From NCBI GenBank assembly GCA_022819945.1, contig JAJEGI010000108.1, positions 136,880-200,879 on the forward strand: DNA of 64,000 nt, read 5' to 3'. The stretch comes from Candidatus Poribacteria bacterium (GTDB taxonomy: Bacteria; Poribacteria; WGA-4E; WGA-3G). The notes under the pieces are model-generated. The model was given only the letters and a program-made list of their open reading frames with translations, had not been told where the DNA came from and did no database searches. The position numbers were made by a program, and so were the translations under genes. Shown here piece by piece: positions 17,322-55,731 of the stretch (positions are counted from its first letter, which is position 1; each line of letters starts with the position of its first letter).

Positions 17322-17936
17322 TTGAAAAATTGGTCAGGATTTCTCCAAGTTCTATTGTGTAATATCATGATCATCGGTTTCGTTGGGTGTGATTCGCCTA
17401 ACGCTAAGAAACAGCCCTATGAAACGCTTGTTTTTGAGGTTGATGAGAACCGACTTGAGCCTATGGTAACAGATACAACGCTCAGGATAAAAATGGCTGC
17501 ACCGAAAAATTGGAAGCAGATTGACGATTCAATACTTACGCAAGTGACCAACAAACTGGCCCCCCAACTCATGGAGGGACTCCAGATAGTGCCACGCTGG
17601 ATTTTTTTGAATGAAGGTTCGCAGGCGATGTGTGTTGTGTCAAAGTTAAATGGTGTGGAAATCGCACCAGACAAAACTTTATTGGAAACTCTCACAACTG
17701 CTTACCGAAACCAATTTCCAAACGCAACGGTTCAGCAGACAATTTTTATGAAAGATGCATTTCGCATCCATCAATTAATGGTTATCGCTACCGATTTCGT
17801 ACTCATCAAACTCATCTGCGACGCGCCAGAAACCCTCGTTTTTGAGGTTGACTATCGCGTTCCGAGAGATGTTTACCAAACGGAACTGCAAGCCATTGAA
17901 TCATCAATTGGTTCTATTAATCTAATCGGCAAATAA
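17322..17936 (+). CDS. putative lipoprotein of unknown function
   Basis: About 204 residues. I chose the TTG at 17322 because GGAG lies 6 bases before it and it yields a compact lipoprotein signal, MKNWSGFLQVLLCNIMIIGF then VGC-DSP. An ATG at 17265 would give an unusually long 30-residue n-region. After the lipobox there is a region reading like a small ligand or stress-protein domain (TTLRIKMAAPKNWKQIDDSI; YRNQFPNATVQQTIFMKD), but I do not recognise the family. It is predicted to be anchored to the membrane facing the periplasm. A small lipoprotein gene follows 42 bases later. Confidence 0.7.
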   Translation: MKNWSGFLQVLLCNIMIIGFVGCDSPNAKKQPYETLVFEVDENRLEPMVTDTTLRIKMAAPKNWKQIDDSILTQVTNKLAPQLMEGLQIVPRWIFLNEGSQAMCVVSKLNGVEIAPDKTLLETLTTAYRNQFPNATVQQTIFMKDAFRIHQLMVIATDFVLIKLICDAPETLVFEVDYRVPRDVYQTELQAIESSIGSINLIGK

Positions 17937-17978
17937 CGGTAGACGCGCTGTGGAAGCGCGCACCACAAGGAGGAATTT

Positions 17979-18272
17979 ATGTTTAGAAGATTTTCGGCTG
18001 CCTTCCTTATCGTAGCAATGTTGTTTGTTATTGGCTGCGCAGCACACGTCCATCAAGTCGGGAAAGGGGCGCAAGGTTCCAGTGTCACAGAAGCGCGGCA
18101 ATGGTATATTGTGTGGGGACTCGTCCCCATCAATAATGCTGATACAAACGCCATGGCAGGTGGAGCAGCCGATTACGAAATCACGACTTCAATTACGCCG
18201 GTCGACTTCATCATTAATGCAATTGGGAGTTATGTCACCATCCACGCCCGAACAGTGACCGTTCGGAAATAA
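17979..18272 (+). CDS. small lipoprotein resembling Bor/Iss
   Basis: A 97-residue protein with signal FLIVAMLFVIG and lipobox Cys (GCAAHVHQVG). The mature part, EARQWYIVWGLVPINNADTN then a Gly-Ala linker and FIINAIGSYVTIHARTVTV, has the pattern of Bor-type lipoproteins: an aromatic strand, a short helix with GG, and a terminal hydrophobic hairpin. The similarity is one of pattern and I hold it loosely. AAGGAGG precedes the ATG. Likely surface or periplasmic; role unknown. Confidence 0.7.
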   Translation: MFRRFSAAFLIVAMLFVIGCAAHVHQVGKGAQGSSVTEARQWYIVWGLVPINNADTNAMAGGAADYEITTSITPVDFIINAIGSYVTIHARTVTVRK

Positions 18273-18297
18273 CCGATAGTAGATTCCAAAAACCCTT

Positions 18298-18341
18298 GGG
18301 CAAAGCGGATGTCTTTTCACTTTTTGACACCGGCTTTGCCC
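18298..18341 (+). terminator. possible stem-loop terminator
   Basis: GGGCAAAGC at 18298-18306 pairs with GCTTTGCCC at 18333-18341 around a 26-base loop, 25 bases after the Bor-like gene. No T-run follows, so it may be a repeat rather than a true terminator. Confidence 0.35.
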
Positions 18342-18551
18342 TTCGCTTTAGATAACAACTAACCGCTAAGGGCGATTTTCTGTATCCATCCGTACTTCTA
18401 TCCGAGATCATGTATCAAAAGGACATTATCACACAACTTGCTTTTCCACCTAAGACATAGTACAATTAAAGTGAAAAATGGATGCCAGAAAGAAAAACGG
18501 AAAACTCAAGATAAGGACTTTTGATTCAACTGAAGGCGGAGGTTTAACACT

Positions 18552-19153
18552 ATGGCATTTAGCGACTTCAAAAAACTCTCTGAAGTTCAAGAACAATTTA
18601 GAATCAAATATATGACAAGTGACTTTTTAAGGTTGAGGTAGCAAATCCTCCGGAGCAATTTCTTCAAGAATTTAGGTTTACCATGCAAAATATCAACGTT
18701 TTTTCGTCTGAGGCATCACGTTGTGAGGCAATTATCTTTCCAATTTTAAGGGAAGTTTACAAGGCGTATGCTGATAACTATGCCCTCTGGATAAGGGAGC
18801 CGATCATCTATGATGAGACCCTGAGTGGCACGCCGGATTACCTTGTTGCTACGAAATCCGAATTGGGCACGACGGTTGTCGGCACGCCCTTGATAATGTT
18901 GGTTGAGGCGAAGAAAAACGATTTTGAACAAGGCTGGGGGCAATGCCTCGCGGAACTGGTAGCCGCGCAAAAAATCAATGATGCTCCAGATGTTCCGGTA
19001 TACGGTATTGTGAGCGATGGTGAACGATGGCAATTTGGGAAACTTGTTGACGACGGTTTCACCCAAAACAGAACAACCTTCAGCATAGATAATTTGCCAG
19101 TTCTTTTTGGAGCGATTAATGCTGTCTTTAAAGCGGCAAGTACGGCACAGTAA
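18552..19153 (+). pseudogene. frameshifted restriction-endonuclease-like gene
   Basis: The 5' part from ATG 18552 reads MAFSDFKKLSEVQEQFRIKY and stops at TAG 18639. The downstream frame continues the same product: from about 18626 it reads KVEVANPPEQFLQEF, then through the Met at 18683 to 19153. Joined, it matches the layout of a protein family common in cyanobacteria that starts with a SDF-xxL-x-x-V motif and carries a PD-(D/E)xK-like core. Here that core is TPDYLVATKSEL then IMLVEAKKNDFEQGWGQCLA. The frames shift by -1 at the run GACTTTTTAAGG (18621-18632). The simplest view is a single-base indel in the T run. A shorter product starting at Met 18683 (156 residues) may still be made. Confidence 0.65.
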
Positions 19154-46634: not shown

Positions 46635-46666
46635 AAATCTGAACTTTTTTGATGTTTTTTAAAATT

Positions 46667-46700
46667 ATGCAAGGTTTTCGCGAAAAATTGTGTCTTTAAT
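46667..46700 (+). promoter_or_regulatory. conserved palindromic upstream motif, copy 1
   Basis: ATGCAAGG, TTTTCGCGAAAA and AAATTGTGTCTTTAAT recur in related form at 52561-52592, upstream of the LamG-ECF operon. TTTTCGCGAAAA is itself a perfect palindrome. The copy lies about 47 bases before the ATG at 46747. A shared promoter or operator is likely but not proven. Confidence 0.5.
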
Positions 46701-46746: not shown

Positions 46747-47304
46747 ATGAACTATATGAATTACTCGCAACTCCTTGGTCGCACAGCCATTTTGATGATC
46801 GCGCTTTGTGTCGGGATCTATTTTTATGCCAAGTGGGATCTCCAACGTTTTGAGAAATCCCTCGGTGAACCGCCGGCACCTATTTCAGAAAAAATGGAAC
46901 CAACGGAAAACCTTGATGAACAGACAACTTTCGGAAAGACAGTGACATTTGAAACTACTGAGGGACCTCTGTTTGTGAAACAGGAAGCAGCAGAACCTCA
47001 GATAATCAACAAGGAAACAGCAGAAGCATCGCCTGATGAGTTTTCGGACTTCCTTGACGAACTTGGAGACGAGGCATTTGTTGCACTCCCTGAGAACCCA
47101 GATACAACAGCGGCTATAGATGAAACGTTTGTTGATGTTTTGCAGGAACGGCTGGGTAATTCTTGGAAGATATCGTCGATTGAGGGGTTGGATGCTATTG
47201 AGACGGTCGAGTGGATAGAGATAGACGGTGCCCGTCTTTCAGGCGACATAATTAATCTTGGGGACCTCGGCGACAATGTTATCATTGATGTCGTTATTGA
47301 ATAG
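46747..47304 (+). CDS. membrane-anchored acidic protein of unknown function
   Basis: About 185 residues. The start at ATG 46747 is supported by AGAGGTAGAG; the frame reaches back to 46690. One N-terminal transmembrane segment (TAILMIALCVGIYFYAKW) is followed by an acidic, Thr/Glu/Asp-rich low-complexity region, and a small C-terminal domain, VLQERLGNSWKISSIEGLDA then IDGARLSGDIINLGDLGDNV. I recognise no family. It lies 103 bases upstream of an ABC-2-type permease and shares an upstream motif with the LamG-ECF operon. Confidence 0.75.
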   Translation: MNYMNYSQLLGRTAILMIALCVGIYFYAKWDLQRFEKSLGEPPAPISEKMEPTENLDEQTTFGKTVTFETTEGPLFVKQEAAEPQIINKETAEASPDEFSDFLDELGDEAFVALPENPDTTAAIDETFVDVLQERLGNSWKISSIEGLDAIETVEWIEIDGARLSGDIINLGDLGDNVIIDVVIE

Positions 47305-47407: not shown

Positions 47408-48877
47408 ATGTTAATGACGTTAATTCAGAAAGAGATTATGCATCATATTTTGAGTGCGCGGTTCGTCGCGCTTCTGTTGATGTGTGTCTTGCTCATACCG
47501 CTCAACTTGCATATCAATTACCATCATTATCTTAAACGCCAAATTGACTATCAAGAGCAAGAAACGCTCGAAGACGAAAATGCCCTGAAAGATGAAAACA
47601 GTGAGAAACCGGAGGGTATGAGCATTAAATTTAAACTGGCGAGAGATACGAATCTTGAAGTTTCCAAGGTGATTCTTAAACCGACCCCTTTAAGTGTGTT
47701 TGCGACGGGTTTAGAATCCGCGCTTCCGAGTTACCTCGGTATGACCCGCAACGGCATCACGCGGGGAGAAGCATCACTATCTACGGCACCGATCGCCTTT
47801 CTTTTAGGGCATCTCGACTTTGTGTTTGTCGTCAGCACCGTCTTTAGTCTACTGGCATTATTGTTTACGTTTGACGCCGTTGCAGGCGAAAGAGAAGCAG
47901 GAACACTTCGGATAACGCTCGCCAATGCGCTGCCCCGCGATATATTTTTGTGGAGCAAACTCATCGGTGGATACTTCGTCTTCATCCTTCCGTTCTTAAT
48001 GTCGGTCATCATCGGTTTACTCGTGCTCGTCTTGCAAGGCTTCCCCCTATCTGAGCCGGACATCTTTCTACGTATCCTCTGCCTTATCTTCGTCTCGCTG
48101 CTCTACATTTCGGTCTTTTTTGCGGTGGGGGCGGTGATCTCAATTTATTTTGACAGTTCCAAGACAGCACTCATCGTTGCATTTACTGTTTGGGTGTTCG
48201 TTGTCCTCATCTTACCGCGTGTCGGGTTTCTCGCGGCACAAATCGTCGCGCCGACTTCAACAGCAGAAAGCGTCTACAGGGAAAAAACAGCGAAGCGGGC
48301 AGAATTGCGGGCTGGACTTGACACGGAAAGAGGCAAAATGATGGGTGAAGTGTTATCTGAGATGCAGAAATCTAACCCCTCACAGGGCGGGACTGCCGTC
48401 TTTACAATAGGTCCGGGACACATGGAGAAAATGAATGAGAAGATGGCACCGCTTGAAGAAGAGGCTCGGTTAAAATACCGGGACCTCGCGACGCAACTCG
48501 ATAGACGTTATGAGCGAGAAAGAAAACACCAAGATACAATCGGCGTGAACTTTTCCCGAATCACACCTACGGCTTCTTTCATTTTTCTCGCGACGGATGC
48601 TACGCAAACCGGTCAGGCGAAAAAAAACACCTACTTTCAAACCGGAACTCGCTACTATGAAACGCTTGATACGGAAATATTCAGTAAAATATCAGAGGGC
48701 GGTTTTGGTCACCACGACATGGCGGAAATCCCGTCTACGATGCCGCCCCCACCGCTTGTAGAGCCGACTTTAGGCGAGACGCTCCAGCATGCCGCCTTGG
48801 ATTTACTGCTGCTCTGTTTCTTTGCGATTGTGCTAACAACCGTGGCGTTCCTGAAATTTTTTCGTATGGATATTTAA
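47408..48877 (+). CDS. ABC-2-type membrane permease (DUF3526-like)
   Basis: 489 residues with about six transmembrane segments: an N-terminal one (FVALLLMCVLLIPLNLHI), a large extracytoplasmic loop (about 45-125), then FVFVVSTVFSLLALLFTFDA, the family motif AGEREAGTLRITLANALPRD, KLIGGYFVFILPFLMSVIIG, further helices, a second large polar loop (about 290-450), and a final helix. This matches ABC-2 permeases of the GldF/DUF3526 type. No ABC ATPase gene is adjacent, so its ATPase is elsewhere. It is followed by a short secreted-peptide ORF and an ECF sigma fusion. Confidence 0.85.
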   Translation: MLMTLIQKEIMHHILSARFVALLLMCVLLIPLNLHINYHHYLKRQIDYQEQETLEDENALKDENSEKPEGMSIKFKLARDTNLEVSKVILKPTPLSVFATGLESALPSYLGMTRNGITRGEASLSTAPIAFLLGHLDFVFVVSTVFSLLALLFTFDAVAGEREAGTLRITLANALPRDIFLWSKLIGGYFVFILPFLMSVIIGLLVLVLQGFPLSEPDIFLRILCLIFVSLLYISVFFAVGAVISIYFDSSKTALIVAFTVWVFVVLILPRVGFLAAQIVAPTSTAESVYREKTAKRAELRAGLDTERGKMMGEVLSEMQKSNPSQGGTAVFTIGPGHMEKMNEKMAPLEEEARLKYRDLATQLDRRYERERKHQDTIGVNFSRITPTASFIFLATDATQTGQAKKNTYFQTGTRYYETLDTEIFSKISEGGFGHHDMAEIPSTMPPPPLVEPTLGETLQHAALDLLLLCFFAIVLTTVAFLKFFRMDI

Positions 48878-49177: not shown

Positions 49178-52111
49178 ATGGAAAGAGATGATGTTCAATT
49201 GATTCGTAGCACCTTGTTAGGTGATGACGCGGCATTCAACGCTTTGGTTAAAAAATACCAAAAGGGTGTTCATGCCCTGGCATGGCGGAAGATTGGCGAT
49301 TTTCACTATGCCGAAGAGATTACACAAGATACCTTCCTCCAAGTCTACAAAAAACTTGCGACACTTAAGAATCCGAATCAGTTTTCAGGATGGCTCTATG
49401 TGATCGCGAATCGGATTTGCCTGAATTGGCTGCGCAAGAAAAGACCTACGATACAATCTTTGGAGGGCACTTCTGCAGAAGAAACAGACGGGTTTTCCTA
49501 TAACCATTATGTATCAGAGCAGCGCGAGACAGAAGCCTCCGAACATCGCTATGAAATCGTCAAAAAACTGCTGGCAAGACTCCCAGAAAGTGAACGCACG
49601 GTCATGACACTCTACTATCTCAGCGAAATGCCAGCGAAGGAAATTGGTAAATTCCTTGGGGTGTCTGTGAAGACAGTGCATAGTCGACTCCACCGGGCAC
49701 GAAAACGCCTGGAAGATAAAGAAGAACTCCTAATTCAGGAGGCACTCAGTGGTATTCAATTATCTACCGACCTCACTGAAAACATCATGCGGCAAGTCTC
49801 TGACATGCAACCGACACCACCTCCGGTTGCGAAACCGCTGCTGCCGTGGGCGGCTTTTGGTGCAGCGACAGTTTTGATTATGCTATTGTTGGGTGCGAGC
49901 AATCAATATCTCGCCCGGTTTCAGCAGCCCTACAGTTTCGAGGCAAAATCTGAACCGACGATCGAAATCGTTGATGCACCTATCGTCCTTGATATCAACG
50001 CCAAACCGACGGTGCGGAATCAGGTTGGACGCGCCACTACGCCCGGTAAAAGCAGCAGTGCCGGTCTGCAAAGCACTGAGATCGCTTCAACATCTAATAC
50101 ACAGGACGATCTCACTAAGTTTTCTGCTTCACAGTGGAACCGGACAAATGGACCCTATGGCGGGACTGTCCGCGATATTTTCGTTACATCTGACAAAACC
50201 GTCTATGCAGCAGCACCAACAGGGATCTATAGACTCACACCGGACGCAACCGCGTGGACACTTATCAACACGAACGTCCGAAACGGCATGTATAGAACGC
50301 CAATGGCTGAACATGACAACGCCCTCTATATGGTTTCCACTGATCATATATTCACTTCAACCGATAATGGCGAGACGTGGCATATCCTTTGCTCCCGTCC
50401 AAAAGGACATCCTGTTGGACTCATTGTTATGGATGAAATACAAGGACGTAACTCAGATCCTCGTCCTGTCCTGTATCTCGCCCTGCAAGATAAAGGTATT
50501 TTTCGGTCTACGAATGCTGGTGTCCAATGGAATCTCCTAAAGAATGGATTAGCGGGCAAACATATTCATGCAATGGCTGCAATCGAAAACACAATGTTTG
50601 CTTCCACAAACGAAGGGCTTTACCGCCTTAATTCAGATGTTTGGCAACAATTGCAAGTGAATACGTCCGGACCCGTCTACTGGATAGCAGGTTTTGAGAA
50701 CAACCTGTATATAGAAGTCGGTCATGATTCTTTGCTACCAGAATCAGAATGGCTTGAATTTGAGCCAAAGCAACAGCATATAGAACAGTTAGTATTTCAG
50801 AGCGACATCCGGTCAAACAGAATTTTCCACTCAACAGACTTGGGAGCGTCGTGGACTGAGATAACACACAAGAATGAATCCGAGTTCATGAGTCCATCAC
50901 TTGGAGTGATGTTTCTGGCGGATACGGGTGAAACACTTTTACCACAGGGAATTGTGGCAGCTGAAAAAAATACTTTTTACAGAGCCAGTCCGTTGGGGAT
51001 CTACCGCACAACCGATGCCGGTAAATCATGGCATCCATTTATGAACGGGATAATAGGAACGGCAATACATGATCTCGTCGCAGTGAATGATACACTTTAC
51101 GTCAACACCGGTCGGGATTTTTTACAATCCGTTAACGGTGGTGAGACGTGGGAAACTGTTCGGATTGATGCCAATAATCAAACGCTTGAAACTATACAGA
51201 AAATATTTCCTTACTTTAATTTTGCTTCGCCGTTAGCGGTCGCTAACGACGTTCTCTATGGAGTCGCACCTGAAAAAGACTACCAGCAGCGCATTTCCCA
51301 ATTAGCTAAAGACGGTGTTATATCTGAATCTAAAAAGGACCACCTGCGCATTTTCCAGTTATCCATGACGGACAATGTACTTGTGCCAGTTCAGGGGGCT
51401 CCCACTTTTGAACGAGAATCTTTTTCGTTCGTTGAGCTGTGGACAGCGGATCATGTGCCTAATAACCAGAAAAAAGACGATAATTTGCTTAATACATCTA
51501 TCGGTATTAAATACGCGGAAATTGGCGGGTTTGCAGTGACTGGACAGACGTTCTATGCCGAGTGGAAGCGCAGACTTTTCAAGTGGAAACACGGCGATTC
51601 GGAATGGACAGATACTGGGTTAATAGATAACAGTGAACCTCTTAATGGATTTGATAGAGGCTTCAAGTTGGCAGTCTCAGGAGATACCGTCTATGTCGGT
51701 AAGCGGAACGGTAAACTCTTTCAATCGCTTGATGGCGGAAAGAGTTGGAAAAATATTACGCCAACCCTCCCGCTTCACTTTACCCGTTTCAAGCAGATAG
51801 CCTTTGCAGGTACAACGGTTTACGTCGCAACTGATAAAGGTGTTTTGAGTTCAGAAACGGGAGCGCATTGGCAGGTGCTAACCGATGGGATGGGCGCGCT
51901 CACCGTGATAAACCAATTCGCTGTCTATCACACGAGCGTTTATGGTGCCGATGATGCGGGTATCTATCGCTTGGATACTCGTGGCAAGTGGGAACAAGTT
52001 TCCGCAAGTGTTCCAGATAAAATTGTCTCTCTGGCCGTCAGTCACGATAGACTTTACATTGCTACACAACAACGCGGAATATTTCACATCCCGCTCGAAG
52101 CGCAGTTGTGA
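49178..52111 (+). CDS. ECF sigma factor fused via a transmembrane helix to an Asp-box (BNR) beta-propeller
   Basis: 977 residues from the ATG at 49178 (GGAGG 7 bases upstream). Sigma region 2 (about 5-90) contains AEEITQDTFLQVYKKLATLK and FSGWLYVIANRICLNWLRKK. Region 4 (about 130-185) contains LPESERTVMTLYYLSEMPAK and GVSVKTVHSRLHRARKRLED. A linker with ENIMRQVSDMQPTPPPVAKP leads to one transmembrane helix at about 222-240 (AAFGAATVLIMLLLGAS). About 700 residues of Asp-box propeller follow: FTSTDNGETWHIL, FRSTNAGVQWNLL, FHSTDLGASWTEI, YRTTDAGKSWHPF, LQSVNGGETWETV and FQSLDGGKSWKNI. Topology puts the sigma part in the cytoplasm and the propeller outside. A separate anti-sigma gene is not present. 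Confidence 0.9.
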   Translation: MERDDVQLIRSTLLGDDAAFNALVKKYQKGVHALAWRKIGDFHYAEEITQDTFLQVYKKLATLKNPNQFSGWLYVIANRICLNWLRKKRPTIQSLEGTSAEETDGFSYNHYVSEQRETEASEHRYEIVKKLLARLPESERTVMTLYYLSEMPAKEIGKFLGVSVKTVHSRLHRARKRLEDKEELLIQEALSGIQLSTDLTENIMRQVSDMQPTPPPVAKPLLPWAAFGAATVLIMLLLGASNQYLARFQQPYSFEAKSEPTIEIVDAPIVLDINAKPTVRNQVGRATTPGKSSSAGLQSTEIASTSNTQDDLTKFSASQWNRTNGPYGGTVRDIFVTSDKTVYAAAPTGIYRLTPDATAWTLINTNVRNGMYRTPMAEHDNALYMVSTDHIFTSTDNGETWHILCSRPKGHPVGLIVMDEIQGRNSDPRPVLYLALQDKGIFRSTNAGVQWNLLKNGLAGKHIHAMAAIENTMFASTNEGLYRLNSDVWQQLQVNTSGPVYWIAGFENNLYIEVGHDSLLPESEWLEFEPKQQHIEQLVFQSDIRSNRIFHSTDLGASWTEITHKNESEFMSPSLGVMFLADTGETLLPQGIVAAEKNTFYRASPLGIYRTTDAGKSWHPFMNGIIGTAIHDLVAVNDTLYVNTGRDFLQSVNGGETWETVRIDANNQTLETIQKIFPYFNFASPLAVANDVLYGVAPEKDYQQRISQLAKDGVISESKKDHLRIFQLSMTDNVLVPVQGAPTFERESFSFVELWTADHVPNNQKKDDNLLNTSIGIKYAEIGGFAVTGQTFYAEWKRRLFKWKHGDSEWTDTGLIDNSEPLNGFDRGFKLAVSGDTVYVGKRNGKLFQSLDGGKSWKNITPTLPLHFTRFKQIAFAGTTVYVATDKGVLSSETGAHWQVLTDGMGALTVINQFAVYHTSVYGADDAGIYRLDTRGKWEQVSASVPDKIVSLAVSHDRLYIATQQRGIFHIPLEAQL

Positions 52112-52214
52112 AGTTATCCGCTTAGGACCTGTGCAGAAAGCAGTAATTTCGTTGTTTTTAACCCCCTAAAGAATCAGAATCAGAATCAACGGTATGAATG
52201 CCTTATGAGCATTC

Positions 52215-52286
52215 GCCGCCCCTTATCAGGGGGACTTTGAGAGGGTTCTAACTCCCTAAATCCCCCTTATCAGGGGGACTTTGAGA
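52215..52286. repeat. tandem family C hairpin repeats
   Basis: Two copies of CCCTTATCAGGGGGACTTTG occur head to tail, at about 52220 and 52264, the second with the full CCTAAATCCCCC lead. Each can form the same TCCCCC/GGGGGA hairpin as at 47353-47390. They lie in the 739-base gap after the first ECF fusion. Confidence 0.65.
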
Positions 52287-52294
52287 TGGAACAG

Positions 52295-52417
52295 TTTTCA
52301 TAGCAAACTCGGAAAACTGTGAAATTTATGAAATGCCGTGAGTTCAATCCACAACTGGGTTCTGGGCGGTTTTCGTAGCAGGATCATTAACAGCTGCTAT
52401 GAAATTTGCTATGAAAT
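52295..52417 (-). repeat. 123-bp MITE-like element, family E, copy 2
   Basis: The same length as the copy at 14245-14367 but inverted. Ends TTTTCATAGCAAA (52295-52307) and TTTGCTATGAAAT (52405-52417). Shared interior blocks, read on the minus strand, include AAATTTCATAGCAGCT and GAACCCAGTTGTGG against AAACCCAATCGTGG. Confidence 0.7.
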
Positions 52418-52558
52418 TTTATACAGCCGATCGCGACTTCTTCGACGCTGTGTGACGTTAATGCTTAATATAATTCAATCATTATATATATAATAACATA
52501 TATAATGTAGAAAGGCAAATTTATTTTCAGAACTATTCAAATTTTTATTTTTTTCAAA

Positions 52559-52594
52559 TGATGCACAATTTTTTTTCAAAAATTGTGTCTTTAA
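52559..52594 (+). promoter_or_regulatory. conserved palindromic upstream motif, copy 2
   Basis: CACAATTTTT (52564-52573) and AAAAATTGTG (52578-52587) form a perfect 10-bp inverted repeat, followed by TCTTTAAT. The block AAAATTGTGTCTTTAAT is identical to that at 46684-46700. It lies about 260 bases before the LamG gene, with a family A element in between. A candidate regulatory site for the LamG-ECF operon. Confidence 0.5.
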
Positions 52595-52749
52595 TTATAA
52601 GAAACACGATAATACAACAACATTTTAAGAGATTGGATTGCCAAACGTTAAATAAGGGTAAACCCTGAAAGGACGTTGGACGTTGGGTATTTTGATGACC
52701 TGTGCACTGTTGGTTATCAAGGTCCTCAGCGGGTCAATCCAAAAGGAGC

Positions 52750-52838
52750 AGGACTTACGCATTTTTCCATGATAACGGACATCCTACGCTGCTGGCGTGG
52801 TTTCAAACCCCGCCAGCAGTGGGAGCTGCGTAAATCCT
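52750..52838 (+). repeat. family A MITE-like element, compact copy
   Basis: AGGACTTACGCA (52750-52761) and TGCGTAAATCCT (52827-52838) are near-perfect 12-bp terminal inverted repeats of an 89-bp element. The interior has CCATGATAACGGACATCC and a CTGCTGGCG/CGCCAGCAG inverted pair. It ends directly against the AAGGAG ribosome site of the LamG gene. Confidence 0.75.
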
Positions 52839-52850
52839 AAGGAGATAAAA

Positions 52851-53744
52851 ATGGGACACCGACAGATGTTTATATACCTCTTTTTGGTAGCACTGATGCC
52901 GCTGAGTGCTAAAGCATTCCCACCGGTTTCACCGGCAGGTGGCAACTATTTAGTCCTTGACGGGGTTGATGACTATGCTGTTTTGGATTTTGAAACCTTT
53001 GGTTATCTCTTACCGGATGGCACAGACGAATTTACCTTTGAAGCATGGATATATCTCACCGCACCGCCCGACAAAAAGGACACGACGGTATTGGTAATAC
53101 TCCATCAACAGGTGGATATGGTCATCGTGAATAATGAAGGTCAATTCAATGAACTGGCGAATGTGATAAATACCGATCCGCCGAAGGGGGACCTCGTCTT
53201 GCAAATGAATTCCTATCTTGATGGCAAGTTTGGTCGGACGTTGGCTTTCCCGATCTCGCTTGAGCTGAACCAGTGGTACCATATCGCTCATCAGGTAAAA
53301 GGGAATCAGGTAACGGCGATCGTCAATGATTTCGGGGGGACACATCAACACGGTCAACCGCTCGGCCATGATCGTGATCCTCGTAATTTGCGTCCAAAGG
53401 ACTTCGTGCTTGGCGGGTTTGGAGAGATAATTGTGATGCCTGGTCGTCCGCCAGCCAAAGCGTTTTTGGATTCCTTCACTGGCTATATTGATGAGGTTCG
53501 TATCTCAGCGGTGGCGCGTTACGATGTTGAGAAAAAGGGTTTCATGCCGCGCGGCAAGTTCAAAAACGACGCGAAGACGGTTGCATTGTGGCATTTTGAT
53601 GAACCCGGTGGCACACAGGAATTCTTAGATGCCTCGCGCAATGGACATCATCTGGCGGGTAAAAATGGCGCAAAGATTGGGAACGCGCTTGCTGTCAAAG
53701 TAGAAGAAAAACTCACCACAACATGGGGACGACTTAAACAATGA
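52851..53744 (+). CDS. secreted LamG/concanavalin A-like domain protein with conserved C-terminal tail
   Basis: 297 residues from ATG 52851 (AAGGAGATAAAA directly upstream; the frame extends to 52797). Signal peptide MGHRQMFIYLFLVALMPLSA. The LamG-type jelly roll is shown by LVLDGVDDYAVLDF, FTFEAWIYLTAPP, LELNQWYHIAHQVKGNQVTA, GYIDEVRISAVARYDVEKKG and TVALWHFDEPGGTQEFLDAS. The last residues KLTTTWGRLKQ repeat the tail of the TolB-like proteins at 35023 and 36019. Its stop overlaps the ATG of a small membrane ORF (ATGA), which is in turn followed by the second ECF fusion, suggesting one coupled operon. Confidence 0.85.
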   Translation: MGHRQMFIYLFLVALMPLSAKAFPPVSPAGGNYLVLDGVDDYAVLDFETFGYLLPDGTDEFTFEAWIYLTAPPDKKDTTVLVILHQQVDMVIVNNEGQFNELANVINTDPPKGDLVLQMNSYLDGKFGRTLAFPISLELNQWYHIAHQVKGNQVTAIVNDFGGTHQHGQPLGHDRDPRNLRPKDFVLGGFGEIIVMPGRPPAKAFLDSFTGYIDEVRISAVARYDVEKKGFMPRGKFKNDAKTVALWHFDEPGGTQEFLDASRNGHHLAGKNGAKIGNALAVKVEEKLTTTWGRLKQ

Positions 53745-53842
53745 AATCTGTAAAAAAGCTATCTATGGGCATTGTTGTTCTCATTCTCTTACTTATGCAA
53801 ATAGAATCCTTAAATCTGTTCGTGTATCATGGAGGGTTGTAA
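53741..53842 (+). CDS. 33-residue membrane peptide between the LamG and ECF genes
   Basis: The ATG overlaps the LamG stop (ATGA). The product is a short basic n-region (MKSVKKLS) and one hydrophobic segment (MGIVVLILLLMQ), ending GGL. The reading frame contains the GGAGGG ribosome site of the sigma gene and stops 2 bases before its GTG. It may be a coupling leader or the remnant of a secreted protein gene. The first ECF fusion also has a short signal-bearing ORF in the same place. Confidence 0.55.
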   Translation: MKSVKKLSMGIVVLILLLMQIESLNLFVYHGGL

Positions 53843-53844
53843 CA

Positions 53845-55731
53845 GTGGAAAACGATGCTCAACTGATTCGCAGAATTTTGTCAGGCGACGATGCGGCCTT
53901 CGATACTTTAGTCCAAAGGCACCAAAGGGGTGTCCACGCGCTTGCGTGGCGGAAGGTTAGCGACTTTCACTATGCCGAAGAAATTACGCAAGATACCTTT
54001 CTTCAAGCATACAAGAAGCTCTCAACACTCAAAAATCCGAATCAATTTGCAGGGTGGCTCTATGTCATCGCAAATCGACTTTGTATTAATTGGCTCCAAA
54101 GACACAAACCCGCGATGCAATCGCTGGAGGACACGCCTGTGGCAGAAATAGAAAAATCTTCTTATATCCATCATGCTTCGGAGCAGCGCGAAGTAGAAGG
54201 CAGCGAGCATCGTTATGCAATCGCCGAAAGACTTTTGTCCAAACTCCCAGAGAGCGAGCGTACAGTGATGACACTCCATTATCTGGGCGAAATGACAGCA
54301 AAAGAGATCAGTAAGTTCTTAGGTGTCTCCGTAAACACAATTACAAATCGACTTTGGCGGGCGCGAAAGCGTTTGCGAGAGGATCAAGAACTCATGGTTC
54401 AGGAGGTGCTCGGCGGTGTGCAGTTCCCCGCCAACCTCACCGAGAACATCATGCGACAGGTCGCTGACCTGAAACCGACACCGCCTCCGGTTGCGAAACC
54501 TCTGCTCCCGTGGAGTGCTTTTGGTGTGACGACCCTTCTGGTTGTCATGCTATTAGGTGCGACCAACCAATACCTCGTCCACTTTCAGAAACCGTATAGT
54601 TTCGAGGCAGTCGCCGAACCGACGGTTGAAATTGTTGATACCGCTATCCTTCTTGATATTGATTCAAAACCGGATCTGCGGAGCCAGGTCGGACGAGTGA
54701 CTTCCGCCGATAAAAACATCGGGGCAGGGCTGCAGGCCGCTGAAACGCCGCTTGTGTCCGATATCCAGCGGAATTCACCCGGGTCTACTCCGTTGCAGTG
54801 GACACGGAAAGCGGACATGCCAACCGCTCGAACGGGTTTTGCTACATCTGTCGTGAATGGAAAAGTGTTCGCGATTGGGGGTAACATACAGCTCAAAAGG
54901 GGCGAATTTGGGGATCTATCGGCTTCAACGGTAGAAATGTACGATCCTGAAACCGATACATGGGAACAAAAATCGGATATGCCGACAGCGCGGTCCGGTG
55001 TCTCTGTCTCAGTTGTGGATGGAAAAATCTACGCCATTGGTGGGACAAAAACAAAGATAATTCAGGCACCTCGCGGTTTCAGTTCCGAGAGTGAAGAACT
55101 CGCAACCGTAGAACGGTATGATCCGGTCACGGACACATGGATCCAGAAAGCGAATATGCCGACACCAAAGAAAACCATGACCTGTGTTGTGAACGGAAAA
55201 ATTTATGCTATTGGGGGGTGGTTAACGACGAAAGAAAAACCGCACTTAGAAACTGTGGAGGTATATGATCCAGGGACGGACACATGGGCAAAAGTCCAGA
55301 GTATGAACTGTGCGCGTTGTTCCGCAGCAATTAGTGTTGTGAACGGAGAAATCTATGCTATCGGTGGGCTCGGTTCGCCTCCTATTCAGGATCAGTCAGA
55401 TCTGTATCTTTCGAGCGTTGAAGTGTTCAATCCAAAAACGAATCAATGGCAGGAAAGAACAGAAATGCCTGCGCCGAAAGCGTCACACACAGCAAGCGTA
55501 ATTGATGGAAAAATCTATGTCATAGGTGGTTACTTTAAGGAAGATGGGGAATTTAAAAAACTTTCAACGATTGAAATCTACGATCCTGCAACTGAGCATT
55601 GGACGCAAGAGCCGGAGATGCCCATGGGTAAATGGGGACATAAAACTGAGGTGATAGATGGGCAAATCTACATTTTTGGCGGAGGTCCTGTTACGAGTGT
55701 CCAAGTTTACGACCCAAGAGGAACCCCTTAG
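53845..55731 (+). CDS. ECF sigma factor fused via a transmembrane helix to a six-bladed Kelch propeller
   Basis: 628 residues from GTG 53845 (GGAGGG upstream). The first 290 residues are a close paralogue of the fusion at 49178: FHYAEEITQDTFLQ, NPNQFAGWLYVIANRLCINW, LPESERTVMTLHYLGEMTAK, GVSVNTITNRLWRARKRL, ENIMRQVADLKPTPPPVAKP, and a transmembrane helix at about 222-240 (AFGVTTLLVVMLLGA). The extracytoplasmic part is different: six Kelch repeats of the form MPTAR-x6-SVVNGKVFAIGG (about residues 320-625), ending VQVYDPRGTP. Predicted topology has sigma inside and Kelch sensor outside. No separate anti-sigma gene is adjacent. Confidence 0.9.
   Translation: MENDAQLIRRILSGDDAAFDTLVQRHQRGVHALAWRKVSDFHYAEEITQDTFLQAYKKLSTLKNPNQFAGWLYVIANRLCINWLQRHKPAMQSLEDTPVAEIEKSSYIHHASEQREVEGSEHRYAIAERLLSKLPESERTVMTLHYLGEMTAKEISKFLGVSVNTITNRLWRARKRLREDQELMVQEVLGGVQFPANLTENIMRQVADLKPTPPPVAKPLLPWSAFGVTTLLVVMLLGATNQYLVHFQKPYSFEAVAEPTVEIVDTAILLDIDSKPDLRSQVGRVTSADKNIGAGLQAAETPLVSDIQRNSPGSTPLQWTRKADMPTARTGFATSVVNGKVFAIGGNIQLKRGEFGDLSASTVEMYDPETDTWEQKSDMPTARSGVSVSVVDGKIYAIGGTKTKIIQAPRGFSSESEELATVERYDPVTDTWIQKANMPTPKKTMTCVVNGKIYAIGGWLTTKEKPHLETVEVYDPGTDTWAKVQSMNCARCSAAISVVNGEIYAIGGLGSPPIQDQSDLYLSSVEVFNPKTNQWQERTEMPAPKASHTASVIDGKIYVIGGYFKEDGEFKKLSTIEIYDPATEHWTQEPEMPMGKWGHKTEVIDGQIYIFGGGPVTSVQVYDPRGTP

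Follow-up and report, generated by a model that had tools for sequence, protein, structure and literature searches.

Two sigma factor genes and their surroundings

The 64,000-nucleotide stretch of DNA analysed here (the window) belongs to a Ca. Poribacteria genome and includes two genes with intact open reading frames, preceded by SD-like sequences and starting with ATG or GTG, the latter following GGAGG in the gene for the Kelch protein. Their products share one layout, which consists of sigma regions 2 and 4, a short linker, a single transmembrane (TM) helix, ~60-80 disordered residues and a beta-propeller (Table 1). The presence of sigma2 and sigma4 without sigma1 or sigma3 (Pfam, TIGR02937) places both proteins among the ECF (group 4) sigma factors, and the nearest solved structures to the sigma domains are SigW, SigH and SigE (PDB). 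The two complete sigma regions and the single TM helix at a matching position, both proposed in a first-pass annotation of this DNA, were thus recovered. Every member of the family described below has a strongly hydrophobic TM segment, which argues against a soluble helix. Lys and Arg are commoner before the TM helix than after it (2.9 and 1.8 per 20 residues, respectively, in 115 proteins), and this agrees with an orientation in which the sigma domain lies inside the cell and the propeller outside.

Table 1. Coordinates of the two sigma factor genes and associated features in the window.
Feature	Position	Strand	Basis or remark
Putative family-type ECF promoter, TTATGCAAGG-N15-GTGTCTTTA	46665-46698	+	Sequence motif; upstream of orf 46747-47304, ABC-2 permease and Asp-box sigma genes
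Single-TM protein gene, predicted target	46747-47304	+	ATG at 46747 is the likelier start; the alternative GTG, at 46690, falls inside the promoter
ABC-2 type permease, predicted target	47408-48877	+	Pfam
Asp-box protein (ECF sigma - TM - twin Asp-box propeller), 977 aa	49178-52111	+	Pfam, TM prediction, structure model
Asp-box protein, sigma region 2, aa 23-89	49244-49444	+	Pfam
Asp-box protein, sigma region 4, aa 126-178	49553-49711	+	Pfam
Asp-box protein, TM helix, aa 221-239	49838-49894	+	Hydrophobic segment
Asp-box protein, extracytoplasmic twin beta-propeller, aa ~320-977	50135-52108	+	Foldseek, GH74 two-propeller enzymes best
Putative family-type ECF promoter, TGATGCACAA-N16-GTGTCTTTA	52559-52593	+	Sequence motif; upstream of LamG and Kelch sigma genes
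Secreted LamG-domain protein, predicted target	52851-53744	+	Pfam; ATG start at 52851
33-aa remnant of a signal peptide from a secreted Kelch gene	53741-53842	+	ATGA-coupled to the LamG stop, directly before the Kelch sigma gene
Kelch protein (ECF sigma - TM - Kelch propeller), 628 aa	53845-55731	+	Pfam, AlphaFold
Kelch protein, sigma region 2, aa 22-88	53908-54108	+	Pfam
Kelch protein, sigma region 4, aa 127-177	54223-54375	+	Pfam
Kelch protein, TM helix, aa 220-238	54502-54558	+	Hydrophobic segment
Kelch protein, six-blade Kelch propeller, aa 328-625	54826-55719	+	Pfam, AlphaFold, PDB matches

Six Kelch stretches were detected by Pfam in the Kelch protein. In its AlphaFold model the sigma helices are confident, a linker helix (198-208) is moderately confident and the propeller is mostly at pLDDT 80-97 by block, whereas the juxtamembrane stretch 235-317 is of low confidence and presumably disordered. 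The modelled propeller matched KEAP1/KLHL-type and designed six-blade Kelch propellers in the PDB. The repeats of the Asp-box protein are of the Asp-box/Sortilin/YCF48 type (Pfam). Its model is weaker (mean pLDDT 67.6), and the best Foldseek matches were GH74 two-propeller enzymes, with the extracytoplasmic sensor domain of BT4673 also among the matches. The propellers named in the annotation are therefore present, the Asp-box one being a twin propeller as judged by the match of the structure model.

The genes adjoining the two sigma genes encode the ABC-2 permease, the LamG protein and an enolase-superfamily protein, and no anti-sigma gene was found beside them in the ORFs and Pfam assignments of the neighbours, as had been noted earlier. 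This differs from canonical sigma/anti-sigma pairs, of which the same genome supplies an internal control in six short sigma genes with a zf-HC2 anti-sigma gene downstream of each. The ABC-2 gene ends 300 bp before the Asp-box sigma gene. In relatives, secreted Kelch-only genes with signal peptides adjoin the Kelch sigma gene, and the family-type promoter motif also lies upstream of LamG genes (L037, L040, L043, L044 and L047). The motif is absent directly upstream of either window sigma gene; given the gene order, the two window promoters would drive the sigma genes through the genes that precede them.

A family with a conserved membrane anchor and exchanged ectodomains

The two window proteins belong to a set of ~33 paralogues in their own genome, where a search with the linker-TM region identified 35 places, 32 of them long enough to align. 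In every paralogue or orthologue that is long enough to reach that point, the TM helix falls at about residues 216-244. The sigma residues, a linker helix (LTENIMREI), the TM position and a juxtamembrane motif are conserved across the family. A profile of the linker, TM and juxtamembrane region gave at least 1,578 matches, a lower bound obtained by summing per-genome counts, in 68 of 85 Poribacteria genomes, with up to at least 51 matches in a single genome. Two genera had high counts; elsewhere in the order there were 0-3 matches per genome, and the other orders had none. Kelch orthologues were found in at least 17 other assemblies, and the relatives among the best 80 of 334 stretches were all from Poribacteria. 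Recurrence of the fusion in tens of genomes, in which frames of ~1,000 aa are open, excludes an assembly error that joined separate sigma and propeller genes.

The ectodomains encoded in the window's own genome comprise 18 Asp-box, 8-9 WD40, one Kelch and one LRR with a GHL15 glycosidase-like domain, together with one M16-like, 2-3 LolA/DUF2092-like (assigned by eye) and one that fell in no class. Placed on the tree of the sigma domains, seven sensor classes need 10 changes, as compared with a minimum of 6. Since well-supported branches force at least three changes for Asp-box and at least three for WD40, sensors have been swapped between copies. In one family member (L118:17076-17591 and 17616-19004) an in-frame TAA separates the sigma part from the TM-ectodomain part; an SD-like GGGAGG comes after the TAA, and the locus is either a pseudogene or a natural split. 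A truncated sigma gene is present in L200.

No Pfam match to zf-HC2, FecR or RsgI domains was obtained for the fused proteins, and profile comparison of the linker with the anti-sigma factors of the same genome revealed no likeness (hhalign probability 0.1%). RsgI carries an Asn-Pro autoproteolysis site; a conserved Asn-Pro is absent from the juxtamembrane stretch of the family, with NP in only 4 of 35 copies. The only conserved cysteine is Cys80 (31 of 32). When the linker-TM profile was compared with the PDB, the sole match was a Notch3 TM peptide (E 0.016), which was taken as generic TM similarity.

The genome also encodes other sigma fusions. At L144:2526-6773 (- strand; G000:C162) an ECF sigma factor is in frame with FtsZ and then the DNA polymerase III alpha subunit over 1,416 aa with no stop, and frames of about 1,350-1,760 aa occur in 10 of 12 other genomes of the genus that were searched; normal FtsZ and DnaE are also encoded by genes of their own. 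Sigma and FtsZ are also joined in a second, shorter protein of ~400 aa (L147:4278-5456, - strand), which is found in most relatives in the genus. In L146:7465-9189 (- strand), which has the family promoter upstream, a sigma domain is fused to the entire beta clamp of DNA polymerase III; there are also three separate DnaN-like genes. Further fusions that have no TM helix (L140, L141, L142, L143, L145, L147:2281-3975 and L121:10780-12459) have M61 peptidase, S9 peptidase, Asp-box, AhpC/TSA, WD40 and TPR-like partners. The joints of several of them resemble the SD and ATG of a downstream gene read in frame.

A two-part promoter motif upstream of family genes

A strict GAAC...GTC promoter search gave a background level only. 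A two-part motif upstream of most family genes, TTATGCAMC-N14-16-GCGTCACTA or -GTRTCTTTA, emerged from a looser AAC...[CG]GTC count and from inspection of the upstream sequences themselves. From its sequence, with an AAC-like -35 and a CGTC-like -10 element, it is identified as an ECF-type promoter. With a motif matrix, which was trained on the same upstream sequences that it scored, 27 of the 36 family genes in the genome reached 16-29 bits and the other nine ~6 or less. Shuffled sequences averaged 4.0 bits, with 13.2 bits at the 99th percentile and a highest score of 20.5. Because of this overlap between training and scored sets, more weight is given to the independent checks. Genome-wide, a fixed pattern had 25 matches and its reversed form 2; for a stricter pattern the numbers were 11 and 0. 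The motif was found upstream of none of seven canonical sigma genes, and in related genomes 32 of 82 family genes scored above the null.

The form of the -10 element follows the sigma clade. GTRTC was found in five copies, all in the clade with an NPNQ-type sigma2.4, which contains both window proteins, while the remaining clades have GC[GA]TC or similar, with L125 as an intermediate exception. Such a match, seen at the level of sequence, is what self-recognition by each sigma factor would produce, although it represents a single evolutionary switch or a few, rather than many independent events. Given that the -10 subtype follows the clade and that ordinary sigma/anti-sigma pairs lack the motif, self- and cross-activation are predicted. 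The sharing of promoters by duplicated genes could partly be due to common descent.

Other loci that bear the motif, named by eye, encode a secreted WD40 protein, secreted proteins with carboxypeptidase-like domains and ABC transporter components. A STAS gene of the anti-anti-sigma type (L197; G000:C169), likewise named by eye, also lies behind a family-type promoter. The distant sigma clade of L144 and L145 (sigma-FtsZ clade) has a different ECF-like motif, TAAACC-N16-CCCTCTTA.

Possible modes of action and relation to known systems

One-polypeptide transmembrane signalling by a tethered sigma factor, as suggested in the first-pass annotation, remains the best reading of this anatomy. The family members are probably single-chain, membrane-tethered receptor sigma factors that are freed by regulated proteolysis and feed back on their own promoters. 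At rest, the sigma domain would be held at the membrane, away from the nucleoid. Binding of a ligand by the propeller, or damage to it, would cause a site-1 protease to cut the disordered juxtamembrane region, and RseP-type site-2 cleavage within the TM helix would then free the sigma factor. The released factor could act at TTATGCAMC...GCGTCA/GTGTCTTTA promoters of its own gene, of sister receptors and of envelope genes such as those for LamG and ABC-2, and positive feedback would amplify the response. Both the release and the ligand are inferred. Proteolysis is considered the most likely route because a single clear full-length homologue of the site-2 protease RseP (560 aa, HEFGH) is present in the genome and because IutY provides a tested precedent. 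A second M50-like frame is also present.

The main rival is that the sigma factor works while tethered, the ligand changing its conformation or clustering so that it recruits RNA polymerase to the membrane with no cleavage. ToxR/CadC-type one-component regulators, which act at the membrane without being cleaved, are the model for this. It would suit a linker in which no anti-sigma module is recognisable and whose proline-rich sequence, with a conserved KP..PW, could serve as a flexible tether; moreover, the single RseP is of a housekeeping kind that was found in every one of 14 control genomes. However, the disordered juxtamembrane stretch and the single TM helix agree with the RIP substrates described for IutY and for anti-sigma factors, and tethered activity is judged a distinctly less likely, though serious, possibility.

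It is improbable that each gene yields two products, a sigma factor alone and a TM-propeller protein acting as its own anti-sigma-like receptor, through processing or through internal initiation at the Met of LTENIM, which would resemble ordinary sigma/receptor pairs. GAG precedes this Met in many copies, some of the soluble sigma fusions have an SD-like sequence and an ATG at the joint, and one family member is split by the in-frame TAA described above. However, the Met is replaced by G, R or L in several paralogues and the Thr and Glu codons vary freely, so that neither the Met nor the upstream SD codons are conserved. A separate receptor product from this start was therefore rejected, and LTENIM is regarded as kept for the protein and not as a start site. 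Least credible of all is the view that the fusions are decayed, with sigma cassettes duplicated before other genes and no role in signalling, since, despite the very many copies and the few that are truncated or split (L118, L200), the features listed above, from the sigma residues to the juxtamembrane motif, are kept across the family, the long frames are open in tens of genomes and the promoters are conserved.

To bridge the membrane, an ECF sigma factor normally relies on a partner. In the proposed proteolytic scheme, as in any in which one chain holds both the membrane anchor and the external sensor, the same molecule could relay a signal from outside directly to genes. In this uncultured and largely sponge-associated phylum the receptor and the sigma factor form a single molecule, which recurs dozens of times per genome with interchangeable sensors. 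The broader picture, of lineage-wide one-component membrane receptors with a sigma output, multiplied to dozens per genome by ectodomain exchange, wired by a self-recognised promoter into a cross-activating network in Poribacteria and possibly active while tethered, is in our view evenly balanced between right and wrong. Direct tests are possible, of the freed sigma factor on TTATGCAMC-N16-GTGTCTTTA and of release by RseP, and the modular layout could be a simple chassis for engineered sensors.

In their large propeller-type extracytoplasmic sensors, the proteins resemble BT4673-type hybrid two-component systems (Foldseek), the output of which is a kinase with an AraC-type domain and not a sigma factor. 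The literature search found no paper on such sigma factors in Poribacteria, and a 2014 single-cell genome paper on the phylum, which reported that eukaryote-like repeats with TM helices, WD40 and LRR among them, are abundant, does not contain the word "sigma" in its text; the sigma-TM-ectodomain layout itself, however, has precedents in ECF52 and IutY. ECF52 (SCO4117 of Streptomyces coelicolor) likewise has, in one chain, a sigma factor, a TM helix, a Pro-rich segment and an extracytoplasmic carbohydrate-binding domain, and proteolytic release with positive autoregulation has been proposed for it (PMC5826349). It has been reported only in Actinobacteria and carries a zinc-finger anti-sigma domain ahead of its TM helix, whereas the Poribacteria family has none between sigma4 and the TM helix, carries propellers, LRR, LolA-like and other ectodomains, and reaches dozens of copies per genome in another phylum.

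IutY (ECF243) of Pseudomonas putida is also a single chain in which sigma is joined via a TM helix to a periplasmic domain, and is freed by Prc and then RseP (PMC5411451, PMC8999054), of which the window's own genome encodes an RseP homologue. It differs in having a periplasmic cell-surface-signalling anti-sigma domain and an outer-membrane receptor; neither was found for the Poribacteria family, which gave no Pfam match to the FecR-like domain. ECF57 shares WD40-like C-terminal extensions (PMC8999054), and two conserved cysteines have been proposed to link its sigma2 and sigma4, in contrast to the lone Cys80 here. The RsgI/SigI systems of Clostridium thermocellum similarly consist of paralogous membrane sensors for various substrates, with RseP-dependent signalling to sigma (PMC12203970), but there the sensor and the sigma factor are separate proteins, and the RsgI domain and Asn-Pro site have no counterpart in the family. 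On sequence features, the nearest systems would be ECF52 and IutY in layout and ECF57 in WD40 extensions, with the anti-sigma modules and the Cys pair setting them apart. What is new here is the different phylum, the lack of an anti-sigma domain and the large expansion with swappable sensors, to which may be added the predicted ECF-type promoter upstream of three-quarters of the family genes in the window's own genome.
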